From Rhodospirillales bacterium RIFCSPLOWO2_02_FULL_58_16 (GTDB lineage Bacteria > Pseudomonadota > Alphaproteobacteria > Rhodospirillales > 2-02-FULL-58-16), in contig MIAA01000039.1 of assembly GCA_001830425.1 (NCBI GenBank), positions 48,185-93,985 of the forward strand: a stretch of DNA of 45,801 bases, in the 5' to 3' direction. Below are positions 33,864-44,897 of this stretch, in pieces (the first letter of the stretch is position 1; each line of letters starts with the position of its first letter). Under the pieces are notes generated by a model. It saw nothing but the letters and a program-made list of their open reading frames with translations, did not search any database and was not told the DNA's origin. The position numbers were made by a program, and so were the translations under genes.

Positions 33864-35639
33864 ATGTGTGGTCTTGTCGCTATATTCGCCTACCGGGACA
33901 ACGCGCCGCCGGTGGCAAAAACCGAGCTTGTCGCCGCCGGCGAAGCGATGCGCACCCGTGGTCCCGACGGCCATGGGCATTGGATTGCCGGCGACGGACG
34001 GGTAGGCATGGCGCACCGGCGGCTGGCGATTATCGACCTCAGCGACGCCGCCGCCCAGCCGATGGTCGCCGAAGACGGGCGCTGCCGGATCGTCTACAAC
34101 GGTGAAATATATAACTTCCGCGCCCTGCGCGAAGAGCTGGAAGCCAAGGGCTGCGTCTTCACGACCCAGTCCGACACCGAGGTGTTGCTGCATCTTTACC
34201 GGGCCGAGGGCGAGGCGATGGTTAACCGTCTGCGCGGCATGTACGCCTTCGCCATCTGGGACGAGGAACGGCGCGGCATGTTTTGCGCCCGCGATCCCTT
34301 CGGCATCAAGCCGCTCTATTATGCCGATGACGGCAACACGCTGAGAGTCGCCTCCCAGGTCAAGGCGTTGACGGCCGGCGGTTTTGCCGGCAAGGGGGAT
34401 AACGCCGCCGGACACGCCGGTTTTTTCCTTTTCGGATATGTGCCGGAGCCGCACACGCTTTACGAAGACATCAGAGCGCTGGAAGCAGGATGCAGCTTAT
34501 GGGTCGATGCCGACGGCGCCCGCAAGATAAAGCGGTTCTTCGATGTTGCCTCGCTGCTGGCCGACGCGAATGCGGTCGGCAAGGAGCCGGTGGACCTGCG
34601 GGAGCTGCTCAGGGACAGCGTGAAGCATCACCTGATTGCCGACGTTCCGGTCGGCATTTTTCTGTCGGCGGGCCTGGATTCGTCGGTTTTGACCGGTCTG
34701 GCCTCCGAGATGGCGAACAGCCGCCTCGAAACGATGACTCTCGGCTTCGGCGAGTTCAAGGATACCGGCTTCGATGAAACGCCGCTGGCCGAGGCGATAG
34801 CCGCCACCTACGGCGCGGCGCACACCACGCGGTGGGTGACAGGAAGCCATTTTCATAACGATATGCAGGCGCTTATGAAGGCGATGGACCAGCCGACCAT
34901 CGACGGCGTCAACACCTATTTCGTCGCCAAGGAGGCCGCCGCCCTTGGCCTCAAGGTGGCGCTGTCGGGACTCGGCGGGGATGAATTGTTCGGCGGCTAC
35001 AGCGGTTTCCGCCAGATTCCGTTTCTGGTCAATATCCTTGGCTCCATCCCCGGCGTGCGTTCTTTCGGCAAGGCCGTGCGCGTGGTGACGGCGCCCATCG
35101 CCAGGCGGATGACCTCGCCCAAGTACGCCGGTCTATTGGAGTACGGCGCCCGCTACGGCGATGCTTATCTGCTGCGCCGGGGTTTGTTCATGCCCTGGGA
35201 ATTGCCGACGGTGCTGGGCGCCGATATGGCCGAGGCCGGATGGATGGAGCTGGAGCCGCTGCTCCGTCTTGAGGACTGCCACAAGCCGATATCCGAGCCG
35301 CGCCGCAAGGTGGCGGCGTTGGAGATGTCCTGGTACATGCGTAACCAGTTGCTGCGCGACGCCGACTGGGCCGGCATGGCTCATTCTCTTGAAATCCGAA
35401 CGCCTTTTGTGGACGTTGAATTGTTCAGCCGTCTGGCTCCGACGCTGTGCCGCCACAACGGCCCCGGCAAGCAGGAAATGGCGCGCACCCCCAAAGAGCC
35501 GTTGCCGGAGGCGGTTCTTACCCGTCCCAAAACCGGATTTTTTGTGCCGATACAGGACTGGCTTCAGGGAGAAAACAACAACGCCGAGGAACGGGGACTG
35601 CGGGGCTGGGCCAAACAGGTGTACGCGGCGCAAACTTAG
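33864..35639 (+). CDS. asnB: Asparagine synthase (glutamine-hydrolysing)-like amidotransferase
   Basis: 591 residues from MCGLVAIFAYRDN; Cys2 is the glutaminase nucleophile, so the upstream in-frame starts are rejected. The class II amidotransferase domain holds MRTRGPDGHGHWIAGDGRVG, MAHRRLAIIDLSDAAAQPM and VYNGEIYNFRALREEL. The synthetase domain has the ATP-binding loop FLSAGLDSSVL (usual SGG-DS with Ala for Gly) and LSGLGGDELFGGY. It aminates a carboxylate, using glutamine ammonia. Members in surface-glycan loci often amidate sugar acids or peptides rather than aspartate, and the neighbourhood suggests that here. It is convergent with the radical-SAM gene, with overlapping stops. Confidence 0.9.
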   Translation: MCGLVAIFAYRDNAPPVAKTELVAAGEAMRTRGPDGHGHWIAGDGRVGMAHRRLAIIDLSDAAAQPMVAEDGRCRIVYNGEIYNFRALREELEAKGCVFTTQSDTEVLLHLYRAEGEAMVNRLRGMYAFAIWDEERRGMFCARDPFGIKPLYYADDGNTLRVASQVKALTAGGFAGKGDNAAGHAGFFLFGYVPEPHTLYEDIRALEAGCSLWVDADGARKIKRFFDVASLLADANAVGKEPVDLRELLRDSVKHHLIADVPVGIFLSAGLDSSVLTGLASEMANSRLETMTLGFGEFKDTGFDETPLAEAIAATYGAAHTTRWVTGSHFHNDMQALMKAMDQPTIDGVNTYFVAKEAAALGLKVALSGLGGDELFGGYSGFRQIPFLVNILGSIPGVRSFGKAVRVVTAPIARRMTSPKYAGLLEYGARYGDAYLLRRGLFMPWELPTVLGADMAEAGWMELEPLLRLEDCHKPISEPRRKVAALEMSWYMRNQLLRDADWAGMAHSLEIRTPFVDVELFSRLAPTLCRHNGPGKQEMARTPKEPLPEAVLTRPKTGFFVPIQDWLQGENNNAEERGLRGWAKQVYAAQT

Positions 35640-37186
35640 GGGAGCTTACCGGCGTTAGAACCGTTCAGCATCTTGGCGAAGCCGCCGTTTTTATCCAGCA
35701 GACCGTTGTTGACGGGCGCTTCGTTTTGAGAGCCTTCGGCGTCGGGGAAGTATATGCCGAGGTTGCGGATGGTGTTGCGCCGCCACTTTTTCAGTTCTTC
35801 CTGCGATACCCCGGCCATGCGGGCGAAGCGCTCCCTTTTTTCCGGAGTCTTGAAATTGATGCGGTCCCATTCCAGCGCCCTTAACATATGCAATTCCTCG
35901 GCCCGGAACTCGTCGGTGTTGATCACGCCCTTTCCGAAACCGAAGAACGCGGCGTTGCCGAAATCAAAACCGGCGGGAAGAAGCCCTTCCTTCTCGGCTA
36001 TGCGGTAGAGTTCGGTTGTCGGCAGCGGGGTGGAGATATGGAACAACACCATGTCCACGTCCAGTTCTTCGGCGAAGCGGAAGGTCTCGCGGATTTCGTC
36101 CCATGTTTCGCCGGGACTGCCGATGATGAAGTCGGCCGCCGTCTCGAATCCCAGCTCTCTGGCTTTGGCGACAACGGCGGGCGCCTTGTCGATTTTGAGC
36201 GGTTTCTTGAGAACCTCGTCAAGGACGCGCTGGCTGCCTGATTCGATAGCCAGGATAAGCTGATAGCATTTGCTTTCTTTCATCAACTCCAGGAGTTCAT
36301 CATCGAGCAGGAAGGTGGCGAGGTTCAGCGATTTCCAATGCAGATCGTAATCGCGTTCGATGAGGCCGTTCAGGATATTTATAAAACGAGGCCTGTTGAG
36401 GACCAGATTGTCGTCAAGGAAATTTATTTCTTTAACCCCGAACTCTCCAACCAGCCGATCAATCTCGGCCAGCACGCTCTTGGCCGAACGCCAACGCACC
36501 TTCCTGCCGTCGATGGCGTGGGTGGAGCAGTAGATGCACTTATAGGGGCAGCCGCGACTGGTCATCATGAAAGCGTAGGGTTGATAACGGGCGTTGGCGA
36601 CGACGGCGTACTGGTTGTTGGTGGAGAAATAGTCGACAAATCCGACCTTGGCGTAATCGGGGAAAGGGACTTCGTCCAGGTCTTTGATGAAAGTAACTAT
36701 GGGGTTGGCGATGATTTCGCCGTTCTTGCGATAGGCGAGGCCGTCGAAGGCGGAGATGTCGTCTTCTCCGCCGTCCAGCATTTTCAACAGGCGGGGAAAG
36801 CGGCGCTCGCCTTCTCCGAGAACGGCGAAATCCACGATCCCGTCGCGCATCGCCAGATCGGGCGAGGTAGTGGCGTAGACGCCGCCGACGACAATGACGG
36901 CCTGCGGCGCGGCTTTCCTGACGGCGGCGGCGAGCTTGTGAAGGCTGGGGGCGTACTCCAGAGACAGACAGGTAATCGCCACCACTTGCGAATCCGAGGC
37001 GGCGATCAGGGAAACCGTCTCGTCAAACCCCAGGTCGTTCCTGTTGGGATCAAGAACGCTTGTTTCGTAGTGATCGGGAACAATCGCCGCCAGGAGTCCC
37101 AGCGTCAGCGGCGGCGCGATCCAGCGGCGCTTGCCGAACCAGCCGGTGTTCGGGGTGGTTATCAGAATCCGGTTAATCGGTTTCAT
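35636..37186 (-). CDS. B12-binding-domain radical SAM protein
   Basis: 516 residues. The N-terminal Rossmann-like half (about 1-150) is the cobalamin-binding type (RILITTPNTGWFGKRRW, AITCLSLEYAPSLHKLAAAV, VIVVGGVYATTSPDLAM). It lacks the DxHxxG motif, reading LDPNRNDLG instead, so any cobalamin would bind without the usual His ligand. The radical-SAM core has Cys213, Cys217 and Cys220 in MTSRGCPYKCIYCSTHAIDG and later FIIGSPGETWDEIRETFRFA. Class B members methylate or rearrange unactivated carbons in natural products, lipids and sugars. Context (DegT aminotransferases, asnB-like, heptose genes) points to surface glycan or lipid modification; the substrate is unknown. Confidence 0.87.
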   Translation of the reverse strand: MKPINRILITTPNTGWFGKRRWIAPPLTLGLLAAIVPDHYETSVLDPNRNDLGFDETVSLIAASDSQVVAITCLSLEYAPSLHKLAAAVRKAAPQAVIVVGGVYATTSPDLAMRDGIVDFAVLGEGERRFPRLLKMLDGGEDDISAFDGLAYRKNGEIIANPIVTFIKDLDEVPFPDYAKVGFVDYFSTNNQYAVVANARYQPYAFMMTSRGCPYKCIYCSTHAIDGRKVRWRSAKSVLAEIDRLVGEFGVKEINFLDDNLVLNRPRFINILNGLIERDYDLHWKSLNLATFLLDDELLELMKESKCYQLILAIESGSQRVLDEVLKKPLKIDKAPAVVAKARELGFETAADFIIGSPGETWDEIRETFRFAEELDVDMVLFHISTPLPTTELYRIAEKEGLLPAGFDFGNAAFFGFGKGVINTDEFRAEELHMLRALEWDRINFKTPEKRERFARMAGVSQEELKKWRRNTIRNLGIYFPDAEGSQNEAPVNNGLLDKNGGFAKMLNGSNAGKLP

Positions 37187-37221
37187 TTAACGCCATCGAC
37201 ACGTTAATTATTGATCTATGA

Positions 37222-37541
37222 ATGATAATCTGAAAAATTCTCCCCCTTGTTTAAGGGGGAGTTAGAGGGGGTCGTTGCAGCAATCGAAGAGGGAATTATC
37301 GGCCTGTGTGTTTTGACCACAGAGGCACAGAGGCGCAGAGAATATTTTTCTCTGCTTTTTCTTTTTTCTCTATACCTCCTCTGTGTCTCTGAGCCTCTGT
37401 AGTTCATAAAACAGTGCTTATTCCAGTCAACGCGCCGGGCGTTAGGGGCATCGGCAGCAACCTCCCCTGGCCCCTCCTTGGTAAGGAGGGGAAAGCGCCG
37501 GGGTTGCCACGGGTCAATAATTAAGGCCACCGGCATAATCC
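37222..37541. repeat. Nested palindromic element, two layers
   Basis: This gap between the radical-SAM and DegT genes is repeat DNA. Outer layer: halves of the GC-rich element at about 37222-37280 (CTCCCCCTTGTTTAAGGGGG) and 37445-37541 (CCCTCCTTGGTAAGGAGGGG, GGGTCAATAATTAAGGCC). Inner layer: CACAGAGGCACAGAGGCGCA (37311-37335) pairs with an inverted copy at 37371-37402 across a T-rich loop. The right edge (37514-37541) encodes the last codons of the DegT protein. Confidence 0.8.
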
Positions 37542-38647
37542 CTGAAAAAAGCATTCACCAGTCCGCTTATATGGCGGATTTGATCTTCGGTCAGGAATTG
37601 GTGGTGGGGCAAAGACAGGATGCGCTTGGACTGGCGTTCGATTACCGGGAAGTCGCCCGGCTTGCCGCCGTACCGACGGGCCGCCGGTTGCAGGTGAATG
37701 GGCGTCGGATAGTGAACGCCGGTGGCGACTCCGTTGTCCTTCAGGTAGCTCTGAAGTTCATCGCGCCGGTCAAACTGGGCGACGAACATGGTGAAGGTGT
37801 TGTCTTCGTAGTCCTTGGCGGGCGGGATAAAAGCGTAATTCGGATCAAGCAGTTCCCGATAGACGGCGGCGTTGCGCTTGCGTATGGCGATTGTGCGACC
37901 AAGGCGCGGCAGGCGATAGCGCAGAATCTCCGCCTGGAGGACATCCATTCGCGAAACGTAGCCGAACTCCACCACCGTATCGCGGTCGATCAGTCCGTGG
38001 TTGCGCAGATGGCGGATGCGCTCGGCAATTTTATCATCGTTGGTAGTGGCCAAGCCGCCGTCGCCGCAAGAATTGAATATCTTTAACGGGTGCGCCGAAA
38101 AGCAGCCGACATTGCCGATCGACCCGGCCCTGCGCCCCTTGTACGCGGCGCCCATGGCCTGGGCCGCGTCCTCGATCACCGTCAGTCCGTGCTTGTCGGC
38201 CAGGGCGAGAACGGGGTCCATGTCGCAAACTCTTCCCGTCAGGTGTACCGGCATGATCGCCCTGGTTTTCGGCGTGATCGCGGCCTCGATAAGGGAGACG
38301 TCAATGTTCTGGTCGGGGCCTGCGTCGACGAACACCGGCACGGCGCCGAGGTTGGCGATAGCGGCGGTGGAAGCGATGAATGAGTTGGGCGGGGTGATCA
38401 CCTCGTCGCCGGGACCGATGCCGAGGCATTTCATGCCCAGCATCAGGGCGTCGGTTCCGGAATTGAGGGCGACGCAGTGCTTGACGCCGACGAAGCGGGC
38501 GACCTCTTCTTCCAGGCGGTCGATGGCCGGGCCGCCAACATAGTTGCCGCCGGCGAGAACGCTTTCGATGATCGGCATGATATCGTCGCGTTCGTCGGCG
38601 AACTGTTCGGCGATGGCGACGTATGAAATCTGCTTCGGTTCTTTCAT
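37514..38647 (-). CDS. DegT/DnrJ/EryC1/StrS-family sugar aminotransferase (A)
   Basis: 377 residues, PLP-dependent. Pyridoxal-phosphate attaches to Lys189 in FSAHPLKIFNSCGDGG; Asp160 in VIEDAAQAMGAAYKG holds the pyridine nitrogen. LNSGTDALMLGMKCLGIGPG and DEVITPPNSFIASTAAIANL are standard. The family aminates keto sugars bound to nucleotides. It starts one base after the stop of a second DegT gene, so the two are one operon and share about the same fold. The last nine residues (RDYAGGLNY) are encoded by the end of a dispersed repeat, so the C-terminus was probably rewritten by its insertion. Confidence 0.9.
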   Translation of the reverse strand: MKEPKQISYVAIAEQFADERDDIMPIIESVLAGGNYVGGPAIDRLEEEVARFVGVKHCVALNSGTDALMLGMKCLGIGPGDEVITPPNSFIASTAAIANLGAVPVFVDAGPDQNIDVSLIEAAITPKTRAIMPVHLTGRVCDMDPVLALADKHGLTVIEDAAQAMGAAYKGRRAGSIGNVGCFSAHPLKIFNSCGDGGLATTNDDKIAERIRHLRNHGLIDRDTVVEFGYVSRMDVLQAEILRYRLPRLGRTIAIRKRNAAVYRELLDPNYAFIPPAKDYEDNTFTMFVAQFDRRDELQSYLKDNGVATGVHYPTPIHLQPAARRYGGKPGDFPVIERQSKRILSLPHHQFLTEDQIRHISGLVNAFFRDYAGGLNY

Positions 38648-38648
38648 C

Positions 38649-39770
38649 TCATTTCCCCTGATAGAATTCGCCGACGGTCTTTATCACATAATCCTGTTGC
38701 TCTTTGCCGAGGTGTTGATCGACCGGGAAAGTGATCATTTCGCGGGCATGCCTGTCGGTCACCGGGAAGTCGCCCGACTTGTAGCCGAATTGACGCAGAC
38801 CTTCCTGTTGATAGAGGGGGATCGGGTAATGGACCTTGGCCTCGATTCCCTTTCCCAGGCAGAATTTCAGCAGGCGGTCCCGATCTTCGGCGAAGACGAT
38901 ATAAAGCAGAAAAATGTTGCGAACTTCGGGCTGTCTGGCCGGAATGCGGATTTGCGGTATTGCCGCCAGTCCCGCGTCGTAGTAGCGGGCGCGTTCAATG
39001 CGTCGGGCAACGATATCCTCGGCCCTGGCCAGCATCCACGAACCGACTATGGCTTGCAGGGAATCCAGCCGGGTGTTGCAGCCCATGATCTCGATTTCAT
39101 CGCGGGACTTGAGGCCGTGATTGCGCAGCAGACGGAGCTTGCGGTTCATCTCATCGTCGTTGGTGACGGATATGCCGGCGTCGCCCCATACGTTGATCAG
39201 TTTCAAGGGGTGCATGGAAATGCCGCCGGCTACTCCCCACGTTCCGGCCCTCTTGCCGTTATACTCTCCGAGCATGGATTGGCAGGCGTCTTCGATCACC
39301 GGCAACCCGTGACGATCGGCGATCTCCATCAGCCGGGGCATGTTGACCATGTAGCCGGTCATGTGCACAGGCATGATCGCCCTGGTTTTCGGCGTGATCG
39401 CCTCTTCCAGATAGCCCAGGTCCATGCAGAAGGTGTCGTCGCAGTCAATGAATACGGGGCGGGCGCCGGTCTCGTGGATGGCGCCGACGGTGGCGATGAA
39501 GGTGTGGGCGCAGGTGATCACTTCGTCGCCATGGCCGATGTCCAGCGCCTTCAGGGGCAGCTTCAGGGAATCGGTGCCGGTGCCGACGCCGACGGCATGT
39601 TTGACGCCGAGCAGTTTCTCGAATGATCTCTCGAACTCGTCCACCGGCTTGCCCAGGGTGAAGTCGCCGCTGCGCACCAGTTCGCGGATGCGATCTATGA
39701 TCTCTTCGGGATCGGCAAACTGCTGGGCCAGAGGAGAATAGCGGACCTTGATGTTCGGGTCGGTTGTCAT
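38649..39770 (-). CDS. DegT/DnrJ/EryC1/StrS-family sugar aminotransferase (B)
   Basis: 373 residues from the ATG at 39770 (MTTDPNIKVRYSPLAQQFAD); an ATG at 39794 would add eight residues, and neither has a visible ribosome site. PLP lysine is Lys190 in GISMHPLKLINVWGDAG, with Asp161 in VIEDACQSMLGEYNG. GVGTGTDSLKLPLKALDIGH and DEVITCAHTFIATVGAIHE are conserved. It is clearly a divergent paralogue of the following gene (same ITPKTRAIMPVHxTG segment). Two adjacent aminotransferases suggest a diamino or two-step amino-sugar pathway; sugars and order are unknown. The gene lies 69 bases after the cyclase gene's stop on the same strand. Confidence 0.9.
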   Translation of the reverse strand: MTTDPNIKVRYSPLAQQFADPEEIIDRIRELVRSGDFTLGKPVDEFERSFEKLLGVKHAVGVGTGTDSLKLPLKALDIGHGDEVITCAHTFIATVGAIHETGARPVFIDCDDTFCMDLGYLEEAITPKTRAIMPVHMTGYMVNMPRLMEIADRHGLPVIEDACQSMLGEYNGKRAGTWGVAGGISMHPLKLINVWGDAGISVTNDDEMNRKLRLLRNHGLKSRDEIEIMGCNTRLDSLQAIVGSWMLARAEDIVARRIERARYYDAGLAAIPQIRIPARQPEVRNIFLLYIVFAEDRDRLLKFCLGKGIEAKVHYPIPLYQQEGLRQFGYKSGDFPVTDRHAREMITFPVDQHLGKEQQDYVIKTVGEFYQGK

Positions 39771-39839
39771 AACGTTGTTTTCACGGATATGCATGAATAT
39801 GTCCGATTTTATAAGTTTGGTCCTGCGCGAAGTAACCGC

Positions 39840-42263
39840 CTATTTGCCGGTCATCACCCATACGCCCTTCCAGTCTTCGGGCGGGTTGGCCTCAAGGTGT
39901 TCGCACCGTTCTATATAGGTTTCCGACAAGGCGTCCTCGGGGTTTCCTTTAAGGCATTCTTTGAAGCAATGGACGGCTTTTTGCCAGTTGCCGGCGCGGT
40001 ATTGTTTGCGGCCTTCGTTAAAATAATTAACCACGTCCATCAGGTTGGGGAAGGTTTTGTCGGTGTGGTAGTCCAGCACCTCGTGCACCCCCACCGGCTC
40101 GGTCTTGCCCTTGACCACCACGTCGTCGATGTAGCGGATGCGGTAAGTTCCCTTCAGTTTTCTGAAGGTATGCTCACTGATCAGCATTTTCGCCGAGTAC
40201 TGCTTGCAGGCGCTTTCCAGACGCGCCGCGAGGTTCACCCCGTCGCCGATCAACGTATAGTCCATGCGTTTGGGCGAGCCGATATTGCCCGACACCACCT
40301 TGTCGGTGTTGATGCCCAGCCCCATCAGCACCGGCGGCAGGCCTTTGGCCTGGCGCGTCGCATTCCATTCATCCAGGCTGGTCAACATGCTGATGCCGGC
40401 GCGCACGCTGCGATCCTCGTCATCGGCGTGGGGGATGGGCAGGCCGAAGGCGCACATGATGGCGTCGCCGATAAACTTGTCCAGCATGCCGCCCTCGTTG
40501 GTGATGCAATCGACCATGATGGTGAAATACTCATTGAGCAGGGCGACCGTGCCCTGGGCGCCCAGTTGCTCGGTCAGGGTGGTGAAACTGCGCACGTCGG
40601 AGAACAACACGGATACCTCGCTGACGGCGCCGCCCAGCACGTCCTCGCCCTTGCCCTTGCCCAGCAACTGTTCGGCAATCGCCGGGTCCATGTAACGCGA
40701 CATGGTTGATTTCATGCGTTTCTCGGTGCTGATGTCCTCGATCATCAACAGGGCGCCCAGCATCTTTTTTTCGGCGTTGACCAGGGGCAGGATGGTGAGG
40801 TTGACCGAGATTTTCTCTTTTTCCTCGCCCGTTTCCTCATCGTCCATGCCGACCATCAGCGTGGCGTCCATCCAGATGCTTGCCTCGTGGCTGACGTTCA
40901 CCTGTTTGATCTTTTCCATCACCCATTCGTTAGGTCCGGCAAAAAAAGCCTCGGCCTGAACTCCGATAATTTCGGCGTCCTTGACCTTCAGGATGCGTTG
41001 GCCGGCGGCGTTGCAGGTGGCGATCTTGCCCTCGTCGTCCAGGGTGACGACGCCGTTGGACATGCTTTCCAGCATGCTTTCGGCGTATTTTTTCATATTT
41101 TGAACATCGTCAAACAGCTTGGCGTTCTCAAGAGCGATGGAAACCTGGCTGGTGAAGGCCTTGAGGCGCGATTCGTCTTCATCGGTAAAGGGGCCGCCGC
41201 GCTTGTTCAGCACCTGGGTGACGCCGATGGTCTGGCCTTTCTTGTTGACCACGGGCACGCACAGGATCGAGCGGGTGAAATAGCCGGTTTTCTTGTCGAA
41301 GGCGGGATTGAAGCGAAGGTCGGCATAGGCGTAGGGAATATTGACCGACTTGCCCGAAGTGTAAACGGCGCCGGCGATGCCGGCGGTGTTGGGAAGCCTG
41401 ATCTGGATGGCGGTCAGGCCGTCGCCCACCTGTGACCATAATTCGCCGGTCTTGTTGTCGTTGAGGAACAGTGTCGAGCGGTCGGCCTTCAACATCCGCG
41501 TCGCCTCGCCCATCACCCTTTGCAGCAGGGCGCTGAGGTCGATCTCGGAAGTGACGTCGGAAACGATGTCGAGGAATTCCAGCTCGGTCTCGCGGGATTT
41601 CCTCATCTTCTCCACATACTGGGTGCTTTGCAGGGCGACGGCGGCCTGGGTGGTCATCGCTTCCAGCAAAGCCAGATCGTCCTCGGTGTATTTGCCTTCC
41701 TTTTTGTTGAGGGCCTGGGCGACGCCGATAATATCGCCCTTGGCCGTGCGGATGGGGGCGCAAAGAACCTGCCTTGTTTCAAACCCGGTCTGCTGATCGA
41801 CGGAACGGTTGAAACGCTCGTCGGAATAGGCGTCATTAACGATCAGCCCCAAGCCGGTGGTGAACACATGGCCGGCGATGCCGCTGGTGTTCATTATCCT
41901 GATTTCACGACGGATTTCTCCCTGGGCGAAGCGCGAGTAAAGCTCTCCTGACTGCTCGTTGTTAAGGAAGATGGTGCCGCGTTCGGAGTTTGTCTCCTTG
42001 GTGGTGATGTCAACCAGCGTCGCCAGCACCTCGTCCACCGTCTCGATGCCCGCCACCTGCCTGGAAACATCCAGCAGCATTCTGGCCCGGCGCAGTTCAT
42101 GGCCGTGGATATCGACCGCGCTCTTTTTCTTGAGAGCCTTGCCGTGATCTTTGACCTCGACCTCTTTCTTGAGGGCGCCGATCATCTTTTTCAGCCTTTT
42201 CCTGCCGGAATCATCCGCATGAGGGACAGGGGCGGATTGCGCGCCCTTTGTATTATCGGCCAT
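39840..42263 (-). CDS. GAF-GAF-PAS class III adenylate cyclase with C-terminal TPR-like region
   Basis: 807 residues from the ATG at 42263. A basic, charged N-terminus leads to two GAF domains (about 70-225 and 240-395; both with NxxxG-type FLNxxxxGELxS strands and APIRTAKGDIIGVAQALNKK / VPVVNKKGQTIGVTQVLNKR). A PAS domain follows (about 415-535; SMSNGVVTLDDEGKIATCNA). The cyclase catalytic domain has metal Asp in VSVLFSDVRSFTTLTEQLG and GDAIMCAFGLPIPHADD, the base-selecting Lys of DKFIGDAIM, and Thr in RMDYTLIGDGVNLAARLES, as in class IIIb adenylate cyclases. A terminal helical repeat (YRAGNWQKAVHCFKECLKGN) looks TPR-like. No membrane helix. Translationally coupled to the coiled-coil gene upstream (11-base overlap). 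Confidence 0.88.
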   Translation of the reverse strand: MADNTKGAQSAPVPHADDSGRKRLKKMIGALKKEVEVKDHGKALKKKSAVDIHGHELRRARMLLDVSRQVAGIETVDEVLATLVDITTKETNSERGTIFLNNEQSGELYSRFAQGEIRREIRIMNTSGIAGHVFTTGLGLIVNDAYSDERFNRSVDQQTGFETRQVLCAPIRTAKGDIIGVAQALNKKEGKYTEDDLALLEAMTTQAAVALQSTQYVEKMRKSRETELEFLDIVSDVTSEIDLSALLQRVMGEATRMLKADRSTLFLNDNKTGELWSQVGDGLTAIQIRLPNTAGIAGAVYTSGKSVNIPYAYADLRFNPAFDKKTGYFTRSILCVPVVNKKGQTIGVTQVLNKRGGPFTDEDESRLKAFTSQVSIALENAKLFDDVQNMKKYAESMLESMSNGVVTLDDEGKIATCNAAGQRILKVKDAEIIGVQAEAFFAGPNEWVMEKIKQVNVSHEASIWMDATLMVGMDDEETGEEKEKISVNLTILPLVNAEKKMLGALLMIEDISTEKRMKSTMSRYMDPAIAEQLLGKGKGEDVLGGAVSEVSVLFSDVRSFTTLTEQLGAQGTVALLNEYFTIMVDCITNEGGMLDKFIGDAIMCAFGLPIPHADDEDRSVRAGISMLTSLDEWNATRQAKGLPPVLMGLGINTDKVVSGNIGSPKRMDYTLIGDGVNLAARLESACKQYSAKMLISEHTFRKLKGTYRIRYIDDVVVKGKTEPVGVHEVLDYHTDKTFPNLMDVVNYFNEGRKQYRAGNWQKAVHCFKECLKGNPEDALSETYIERCEHLEANPPEDWKGVWVMTGK

Positions 42264-42798
42264 CCGGTTTCTCCAGTTGGCCTCGAAGAGCCGAGACCGT
42301 CTCCTGCAAGTGCTTCGTTTCACTGCGAAAATCACGACTCATGTCGGACATCCGCTGCTGGTGGCTTGAATCGACTCGTTCCAGTTGAGTGCGCAGTTCA
42401 CGAGCCGTTTCCTTGAGTTGAATAATTTCGGCGCCGGTTTCGGCGATGACCTTCTGAACGCTTTCCTGCTTGTCGATTTTCATCTTCTCCATCTCGTCGC
42501 GCAAGGCCTGAACCGTAGCTTTGAGCTGAATTATTTCCGAGCTGTACTCGGCAATCGTCTTCTGAACGCTTTCCTGCTTGTCGATCTGCATCTTTTCCAG
42601 CTCGCCGCGTAATGCCTGCGCCGTGGCCTTGAGCTGAATTATTTCCGAGCTGTGCTCGGCGATCGCCTTCTGGACGCTTTCCTGCTTGTTGACCTGCGCG
42701 GCTTCCAGTTCATGGCGCAGGGCGCGGATGGTATCGACGTGATGGCGGTTTTCAATTTGAGCCTGATAAAGCTCGCTTGAATTTTCCTGAAGTTCCAT
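42253..42798 (-). CDS. Coiled-coil protein made of five 36-residue repeats
   Basis: 181 residues, all explained by one 37-residue and four 36-residue units. The three central units each begin KQESVQK-IAE and continue EIIQLK-TA-LR--LEKM-I; the DNA repeats with a 108-base period. The outer two units are more diverged. The protein is entirely helical and strongly predicted to be a coiled coil, with no signal peptide or membrane segment. I recognise no family. Its stop overlaps the start of the cyclase gene by 11 bases (ATGGCCGATAA), so the two are made together, and a scaffold or regulator role for the cyclase is a reasonable inference. The gap of about 120 bases to the divergent histidine kinase is AT-rich and should hold both promoters. 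Confidence 0.8.
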   Translation of the reverse strand: MELQENSSELYQAQIENRHHVDTIRALRHELEAAQVNKQESVQKAIAEHSSEIIQLKATAQALRGELEKMQIDKQESVQKTIAEYSSEIIQLKATVQALRDEMEKMKIDKQESVQKVIAETGAEIIQLKETARELRTQLERVDSSHQQRMSDMSRDFRSETKHLQETVSALRGQLEKPDGR

Positions 42799-42917
42799 TT
42801 AGAGCCTACTTGTGCTATCCGAGCGGATTCCTTCGCTATGATAATGATAATACGTTATTTTCCATAGTCCGCTAATTTAGTGTTAAACGATTCCAATAAA
42901 TTTTTCGGCGCCAAGCA

Positions 42918-43946
42918 ATGACCCCGGCAACAGTGATTTTACGAATAGCGATCATAATCTTCCTTGCGGAAGGCATGGTCATGTTCGGCCTTTCGGTGAC
43001 CGGGTCGATTTTCTCGCAAAATGTCGAGGCCCTGGTCGATGCCGTCGTCTTGACCGTGCTTTCCACGCCTTTTATATATTTTTGGGTCATCAAGCCCTTT
43101 ATCGAAGCCCGCAACCAGGCAATCAACGATATACAGAAGGCCCATGACAAGCTGGAGGCGCGGGTCGAGGAGCGAACCTTTGAATTGGCGGTGGCGCGTG
43201 ACGGAGCCGAGATGGCGAGCCGCGCCAAGTCGTCCTTCCTCGCCGCGATGAGCCATGAGTTGCGCACGCCGCTCAACGCCATCATCGGCTTTTCCGAAAT
43301 GATGAGCCGAAAGACCTTCGGCCCCCTCGGCGATTCCCGTTACGCTGACTACGCCAATGACATCAGGGCAAGCGGCCTGTATCTGCTGGACATGATCAAC
43401 GACATCCTCGACCTGTCCAAGGTGGAAGCCGGCAAGCAGGCGCTGCTGGAGGAGGAATTGAATGTATCGAGCATCGTTTCCTCGTCTTTGGAAATGGTCA
43501 GGGAACGCGCCAAAGACGCCAAGGTGGAAATGACGGCGGAATTGCCGGCGGATACGCCGAGGCTGCTTGCCGACGGCCGCATGTTCAAACAGATCATGCT
43601 AAATTTATTGACCAACGCCATAAAGTTCACCCCGGAGGGGGGCAAGGTGACGATCAGCGGGGATATCGGCGGAGACGGCAGCTTCTCGCTGAGGGTGACC
43701 GATTCCGGCATCGGCATCGCCGAGGAAGACCTGGCGGTGATTCTGTCGCCCTTCGGTCAGGTGGACAACGAGTACACCCGCAGGCACAAGGGATCCGGCC
43801 TCGGCATACCCTTGGTCAAGGAATTGATCGAGATGCACGGCGGCGCGCTAAAAATTGAAAGCGCTGTCGGGATCGGCACCACCATCATCATCAATCTGCC
43901 GGCATGGCGCATTATCAACCTCCCCGTAATTCCAACCTCCCCGTAA
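42918..43946 (+). CDS. Membrane-anchored sensor histidine kinase
   Basis: 342 residues. Two membrane helices (about 8-30 and 38-60) have almost no periplasmic loop. A coiled-coil linker (about 68-105) leads to HisKA with the phosphorylated His in FLAAMSHELRTPLNAIIGFS, then the HATPase domain with the N box (MLNLLTNAIKFTPEGGKVTI), the G1 box (VTDSGIGIAEEDLAVILSPF) and the G2 box (HKGSGLGIPLVKELIEMHGG). There is no receiver domain and no adjacent response-regulator gene, so it is an orphan. It is divergent from the coiled-coil/cyclase operon. The C-terminus was altered by a 17-base tandem duplication (43916-43949), which shifts the frame and ends the protein at INLPVIPTSP. Confidence 0.9.
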   Translation: MTPATVILRIAIIIFLAEGMVMFGLSVTGSIFSQNVEALVDAVVLTVLSTPFIYFWVIKPFIEARNQAINDIQKAHDKLEARVEERTFELAVARDGAEMASRAKSSFLAAMSHELRTPLNAIIGFSEMMSRKTFGPLGDSRYADYANDIRASGLYLLDMINDILDLSKVEAGKQALLEEELNVSSIVSSSLEMVRERAKDAKVEMTAELPADTPRLLADGRMFKQIMLNLLTNAIKFTPEGGKVTISGDIGGDGSFSLRVTDSGIGIAEEDLAVILSPFGQVDNEYTRRHKGSGLGIPLVKELIEMHGGALKIESAVGIGTTIIINLPAWRIINLPVIPTSP

Positions 43947-44057
43947 TTCCTACAAATCTATTTATCCGACTGTGATGTCCGTCACATACAAAGCTTCTTT
44001 GATATGGGATCATACGGTCAGTCTTAGGATTTCCCCTCCCGAGACGTTCCCCCCTCT

Positions 44058-44255: not shown

Positions 44256-44897
44256 TTACAGCCCGAACTTGTTTCTTACCGCGTCGGCGAGGGCGGCGGC
44301 ATCGGCGATGGCTTCCTCGCGGGCTTGCAAAGAGGGGTCTTTGCCGGCCTCCAGCAGGGCTTTGGCCTTGAGAAGTTTCTTGAGGCGTTTTTCTTCGCCC
44401 TTGAGTTCGATTTCCATCTTGCGGATGCGTTTGTTCAGACCCTCTACCCGGTGGAGCGTTCGCGCCCGATTTCCGGCGGCGCGGCGGCGGAAGTATTTGC
44501 GTAACGGCCACTCGCCGATGACGGCGAACAGCCAGACGCCGGTGATCCCGAAGATAATGGCGACCACCAGAAAGCTTGCCTTCTGGAAAGCCATGACGGT
44601 TCCCCAAAAGCCGATGGTGACGGTGGCCGAGGCGATGGTAAACAACAGACGACGGGTGACGATGTAGTCATCCTGATAAGTTTGTTCGGCCTCGACAATG
44701 GCGCCGGCGATCTCGCTGCGCGCCATATCCTGCCATTGCTTGAAGTTCATCCCCTCGGAAATGGTGCGTCCGTCGCGGATGAATTGCTCTAACCGTTTAA
44801 GCACGAATTCAGCCCTCTGCTCGGGTGTCGGATGTCCGCCCTTGCCGGGAAGGTTCTTGGGGTCGTCCTGAAGAAGGTCAAATTCGTCCTTTGCCAT
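44256..44897 (-). CDS. Hypothetical membrane protein with C-terminal coiled coil
   Basis: 213 residues, no family recognised. The N-terminal 85 residues are polar and charged (GGHPTPEQRAEFVLKRLEQF). Two adjacent hydrophobic segments (about 84-104, LLFTIASATVTIGFWGTVM, and 109-127, FLVVAIIFGITGVWLFAVI) form a membrane hairpin. A basic, highly charged coiled coil follows (RVEGLNKRIRKMEIELKGEE, KRLKKLLKAKALLEAG), ending in ADAAALADAVRNKFGL. Both ends are probably cytoplasmic. It is flanked downstream by a strong bidirectional hairpin (44209-44237) and upstream by an extremely AT-rich gap shared with the next gene. Confidence 0.7.
   Translation of the reverse strand: MAKDEFDLLQDDPKNLPGKGGHPTPEQRAEFVLKRLEQFIRDGRTISEGMNFKQWQDMARSEIAGAIVEAEQTYQDDYIVTRRLLFTIASATVTIGFWGTVMAFQKASFLVVAIIFGITGVWLFAVIGEWPLRKYFRRRAAGNRARTLHRVEGLNKRIRKMEIELKGEEKRLKKLLKAKALLEAGKDPSLQAREEAIADAAALADAVRNKFGL

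Follow-up and report, generated by a model that had tools for sequence, protein, structure and literature searches.

Does the small repeat protein encoded directly ahead of a multi-sensor adenylate cyclase work with that enzyme, and if so, as what? In the window (the whole stretch of 45,801 nucleotides that was analysed) the two reading frames overlap on the minus strand, and a sequence-only reading had suggested that the coiled coil could set the oligomer state of the cyclase or its place in the cell, which we consider plausible. Our preferred reading, at a probability of roughly 0.6, is that the small protein is an obligate subunit of the cyclase, a rod that serves to scaffold or place the enzyme. 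The features concerned are as follows.

42253..42798, minus strand: coiled-coil repeat protein of 36-residue units (ORF of 181 aa; single helix in AlphaFold; upstream of the cyclase throughout the testable clade)
42411..42697, minus strand: 108-bp tandem array, DNA counterpart of the central repeat units (Tandem Repeats Finder)
42253..42263, minus strand: overlap of 11 bases between the coiled-coil stop and the cyclase start (from the sequence; recurs in relatives)
39840..42263, minus strand: GAF-GAF-PAS-class III adenylate cyclase-TPR-like protein, CyaB1/CyaB2-like (807 aa; Pfam, 1ykd match)
42105..42263, minus strand: cyclase residues 1-53, a variable, lysine-rich N-terminal linker from the start to the pre-GAF helix (pLDDT, tblastn)
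41172..41207, minus strand: NKFDE cyclic-nucleotide motif of GAF-B, residues 353-364, NKRGGPFTDEDE (105-ortholog alignment)
42799..42917, no strand: intergenic region where the promoter of the pair and that of the divergent kinase would be expected (from the sequence)

Gene overlap and the two proteins

The cyclase reading frame is open from a GTG at 42335, and because the ATG at 42263 is the start that fits, we place the enzyme at 39840-42263 (minus strand, 807 aa). This ATG lies inside the end of the coiled-coil ORF, with 11 bases common to both genes (42253-42263); the same 11-base overlap is found in many relatives, −11 being the commonest offset between the two genes. Overlapping pairs occur in 52 of 72 scorable relatives, which supports the translational coupling proposed earlier, and in most loci stop and start overlap with a Shine-Dalgarno-like sequence inside the upstream ORF. 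A sigma-70-like match in the intergenic region (minus strand, 42886-42857) is weak, at 9 of 12 positions.

At the DNA level, the 108-bp array in the coiled-coil gene is by far the strongest repeat of the whole window (2.7 copies, 83% matches, score 378). In the protein, conserved LR..(L/M)E anchors lie at residues 27, 63, 99, 135 and 171, in exact steps of 36, and since the 181 residues hold four full repeats with a half unit at each end, the earlier description of five 36-residue units is a fair one. We aligned 350 units from about 90 proteins, permitting anchor spacings of 32-40, and neighbouring LR..LE anchors were spaced by exactly 36 residues in 343 of 343 cases. Core positions advance by 4,3,4,4,3,4,4,3,4,3, that is 7+11+11+7 (two heptads and two hendecads), the period corresponds to ten turns, and the strongest hydrophobic harmonic falls at 3.60 residues per turn, in agreement with the earlier remark that 36 residues make about ten helical turns and no heptad multiple. 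As this value is close to the pitch of a free alpha helix, a bundle of such helices should, from coiled-coil theory, be almost straight. AlphaFold predicts one helix over residues 2-176 (175 residues, mean pLDDT 92.8). Polar residues are also conserved at fixed positions of the unit (R4, E8, Q19, E28, Q31).

Many family members have merely 3-4 units, and the coiled coils of close relatives differ by exactly 36 residues (223 and 259 in L049 and L058, 258 and 222 in L060 and L069); length may therefore vary while phase may not, as expected for a rod whose ends keep a fixed relative orientation. For the coiled coil, most pairwise dN/dS values lie at 0.05-0.2, near the cyclase value in the same pairs, and purifying selection at the amino-acid level is strong. 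Pfam returned sub-threshold matches to assorted coiled coils with none over cut-off, every NCBIfam match was under cut-off, and the family profile had no match in the PDB at E below 0.001. By these searches the predicted partner lies outside every database family tested (Pfam, NCBIfam, PDB): the enzyme is, on its predicted domains, of a known kind, and the partner is new to the databases tested.

Pfam places GAF, GAF, PAS and Guanylate_cyc over cut-offs in the cyclase, with the two GAF stretches at E 9.8e-39 and PAS_4 at residues 398-516 (E 4.3e-7), between GAF-B and the catalytic domain. Of the domain order GAF-GAF-PAS-cyclase-TPR given earlier, the first four elements hold, whilst the C-terminal TPR stays under the Pfam cut-off at a place where AlphaFold shows three C-terminal helices. 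Neither the sequence nor the AlphaFold model shows an evident transmembrane segment, so that the enzyme does appear to lack a membrane anchor, as had been stated. Six residues are invariant among 105 cyclase orthologs (D556, D600, K596, T670, N677 and R681); from what is established for class III cyclases, we take D556/D600 to be the metal aspartates, K596/T670 the adenine-type residues and N677/R681 members of the catalytic set, and the predicted catalytic residues are of class III, adenylate type. The NKFDE residues of GAF-B are nearly as constant in the same orthologs (N353 105/105, K354 90/105, F359 105/105, D363 105/105, E364 104/105). The tandem GAFs match those of Anabaena CyaB2 (1ykd) in PDB sequence (E 6.8e-43) and as the second-best fold match, and they also resemble mammalian PDE2/PDE5 in sequence and fold. 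Two points escaped the sequence-only reading: the predicted enzyme groups with tandem-GAF cyclases of the cyanobacterial CyaB1/CyaB2 type, and a predicted cyclic-nucleotide-binding motif is present in its GAF-B.

Distribution and origin of the pair

Co-occurrence of the two genes, proposed earlier as a check, was scored on full-length cyclase orthologs and on coiled coils detected by profile A1 (E at most 1e-10) in an order sample of 101 genomes: 57 had both genes, 44 had neither and none had one. In 55 of the 57 the genes adjoin on the same strand with the coiled coil first, and in the other two they lie at contig ends. A phylum sample of 299 genomes gave 24 with both, at neighbouring coordinates in each, and 275 with neither. 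Among named public loci the coiled coil is directly upstream in 77 of 80, which is 77 of 77 testable, as L057, L062 and L079 have <330 bases of upstream DNA and could not be scored; in a Verrucomicrobiota sample it accompanies five of five full-length cyclase orthologs. The unit profile matches 51 of 473 neighbouring ORFs, each of which precedes the cyclase on its strand; of 470 window ORFs it matches only one. The genome collections share members, so these samples are not independent. Non-conservation even in close relatives, named earlier as grounds for refutation, is decisively contradicted by these counts, and the postulated link between the two proteins is supported by perfect co-occurrence, conserved order and one natural fusion.

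The genome of the window encodes eight class III cyclase domains and one coiled coil, and the coiled-coil protein is present once per genome where examined. No coiled coil occurred without a cyclase in the order and phylum samples, apart from one distinct type: G022 (L112:4689-5591, minus strand) and G043 (L113:4525-5463, plus strand), of one family, encode a second protein with similar coiled-coil repeats, an N-terminal region that looks non-helical and a dCMP-deaminase-like gene nearby. With a different architecture and no adjoining cyclase, these were rejected as members of the pair. A plasmid collection held no cyclase ortholog at E 1e-100.

A phylum sample around genome G395 contained eight full-length cyclase orthologs, five with the partner (five of five at at least 58% identity) and three without, the latter forming a separate clade at 52-53% identity. 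These three (L164, L165 and L166) have a 50-residue N-terminal extension and lie near a site-2-protease-like gene. Four further cyclase-domain paralogs (L168, L169, L170 and L176) are only 40-48% identical and were not accepted as partnerless orthologs.

The unpaired sister clade offers a comparison for where the partner may bind. In the window's cyclase, residues 1-53 are predicted to be disordered (AlphaFold pLDDT about 30) and the tblastn matches of nearly all orthologs start at residue 40-60; because these residues are not conserved, a sequence-specific docking site is not evident among them. Where the paired clade has this short variable linker, the unpaired clade has its conserved-looking extension, and in the inter-GAF helix (213-241) five of seven conserved positions are changed in the unpaired clade, compared with 42 of 311 elsewhere (post hoc test on three related sequences only, p about 0.001). 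Extension and helix changes may be hints, no more, to the site of binding.

When 87 cyclases were placed on a FastTree tree, those with the partner fell into one clade (support 100) that requires just one change of state, and it is a fair statement that the pairing was gained once and has never been seen lost or separated. As all the co-occurrences go back to one evolutionary gain, they are not many independent events, and a Fisher p computed on them makes the evidence look stronger than it is. Members of the clade are labelled Alphaproteobacteria, Magnetococcia, Betaproteobacteria, Mariprofundus, Thermodesulfobacteriota, Myxococcota, Verrucomicrobiota and Planctomycetota; MAG labels can err, and lone odd labels (Scalindua, Anammoxibacter, Asaia) carry little weight. 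In one genome (G133, locus L148) a single ORF of about 900 aa encodes coiled-coil units, a proline-rich linker and then the cyclase; this fusion, although a single MAG sequence with a degenerate third repeat, speaks more directly than anything else for a physical association of the two parts. An automatic check suggested L051 as a second fusion, which was discarded on account of a stop between the two frames.

Proposed role of the coiled coil and rival readings

Because the coiled coil lies upstream in every testable clade member, it is very probable that it is a dedicated physical partner of the cyclase, undescribed so far; physical association, taken alone, is perhaps to be called likely. 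In the preferred reading, the small protein would be a dedicated, obligate cyclase subunit. Its 175 helical residues would make an extended alpha-helical rod, almost straight and about 26 nm long, which would self-associate and also bind the N-terminal region of the dimeric cyclase. Serving as spacer or scaffold, the rod would set the oligomer geometry of the cyclase and its place in the cell, and GAF-B probably binds cAMP and would feed back on activity as in Anabaena CyaB1/CyaB2, cAMP feedback through the GAF domains being likely by analogy with CyaB2.

Two other readings are serious rivals. The coiled coil might form cytoskeleton-like filaments or a polar scaffold of its own, with the cyclase as a client held via another surface, and the exact 36-residue period (about 5.4 nm), the conserved polar residues at fixed unit positions and the tolerance of whole-unit length changes would all suit such a filament. 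However, each genome examined has one coiled coil, none stood without a cyclase in the order and phylum samples (the L112/L113 type aside), and many members, at 3-4 units, are short for a filament protein, so we regard this as unlikely. Bacterial coiled-coil scaffold proteins such as crescentin, FilP and DivIVA are long helical rods; the window protein is likewise a predicted long helical rod that probably self-associates, but it is tied to one enzyme, has an exact 36-residue period and showed no relation by sequence to scaffolds of this type in Pfam, NCBIfam or the PDB. Equally doubtful is a role as input adaptor, in which the coiled coil would hold the cyclase at one end and a receptor, membrane or signalling protein at the other and transmit a signal between them: a repeat number that varies with register kept would fit, as would the altered inter-GAF helix of the unpaired cyclases (post hoc, three related sequences), yet no third gene is conserved beside the pair, and a CHASE2 cyclase is found in only 19 of 80 loci.

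Two simpler accounts are practically excluded. Were the small ORF a mere leader, whose translation sets cyclase expression by coupling and whose product has no function, the stop/start overlap and the internal Shine-Dalgarno-like sequence of most loci would be explained, but strong amino-acid-level purifying selection, an exact 36-residue register across phyla, the fusion of the coiled coil into the cyclase in one genome and the loci with non-overlapping genes make this very improbable. That the two genes are accidental neighbours in related genomes can draw on the single origin and nothing beyond; it is contradicted by the co-occurrence data: in lineages from several phyla, whose flanking genes differ, the pair is nowhere lost or split, and we give this reading next to no credence.

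For cyclic-nucleotide feedback, tandem-GAF adenylate cyclases serve as textbook models, and they have been studied as single polypeptides. Anabaena CyaB1 and CyaB2 share with our enzyme the N-terminal GAF-GAF, the PAS before the catalytic domain, the class III catalytic domain itself and the NKFDE motif, whereas the window clade adds a separate, translationally coupled coiled-coil gene throughout. In CyaB2, cAMP stimulates the enzyme via the GAF domains (PMC4411481), and the same paper, on which this comparison is based, mentions no partner for CyaB2. The S-helix, a coiled-coil element linked to cyclases and other signalling enzymes, spans about 40 residues with heptads and an ERT signature and lies between domains of one protein (Anantharaman et al. 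2006; PMC1592074); the window coiled coil differs in standing alone in 36-residue units at 3.60 residues per turn, and with a unit profile of period 36 that contains no ERT it was not classed as an S-helix. PADLOC matches to Pycsar pyrimidine cyclases reflect the homologous class III fold and cover the cyclase domain only; an assignment to Pycsar was rejected, as the locus has no TM or TIR effector gene, its sole strong partner is the coiled coil, and the purine-type K596/T670 are invariant. No publication on the coiled-coil/cyclase pair was found in the open-access literature, in keeping with the earlier statement that no described system with this pair was known.

Within the testable members, a large clade of tandem-GAF cyclases in several phyla never occurs without its specific coiled-coil partner. 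We tentatively suggest that this could be a new class of second-messenger complex, in which the obligate partner of a cAMP-feedback cyclase is a modular, near-straight rod of exact ten-turn units; through the number of its units the rod would be set to a given length, and so place or space the cyclases in the cell. With this pair, the placement and assembly of cAMP sources in bacteria can readily be tested, and protein design may profit from straight coiled coils of exact period that occur naturally in a range of lengths.

Genes around the pair

Across the 80 named loci no third gene is constant beside the pair, and flanking genes differ between lineages. After the coiled coil, the gene most often found nearby is that of a convergent CHASE2 cyclase (19 of 80 loci), which does not adjoin the pair in the window; at L041:7384-9804 (minus strand) and similar loci this CHASE2-class III cyclase brings two cAMP sources together. 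The best other cyclase match in the window's genome is on another contig.

Shared control with the divergent histidine kinase, raised in the sequence-only reading, finds no support, as related loci have no comparable kinase gene in that position. Further upstream, a 213-aa protein (44256-44897, minus strand) that ends in a coiled coil and probably contains membrane segments had no Pfam family over cut-off. On the other side of the pair, 35636-39794 holds two adjacent DegT/DnrJ/EryC1-type aminotransferase genes and then a gene for a B12-binding radical SAM protein, which together probably serve sugar or polysaccharide biosynthesis. An ORF at 37216-37513 looks spurious, with translations of the SPLNKG/LLTKEG type that are typical of dispersed intergenic repeats. 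The kinase itself (42918-43946, plus strand) is an orphan HisKA-HATPase sensor kinase, at whose 3' end lies a perfect 17-bp tandem duplication (43916-43950).
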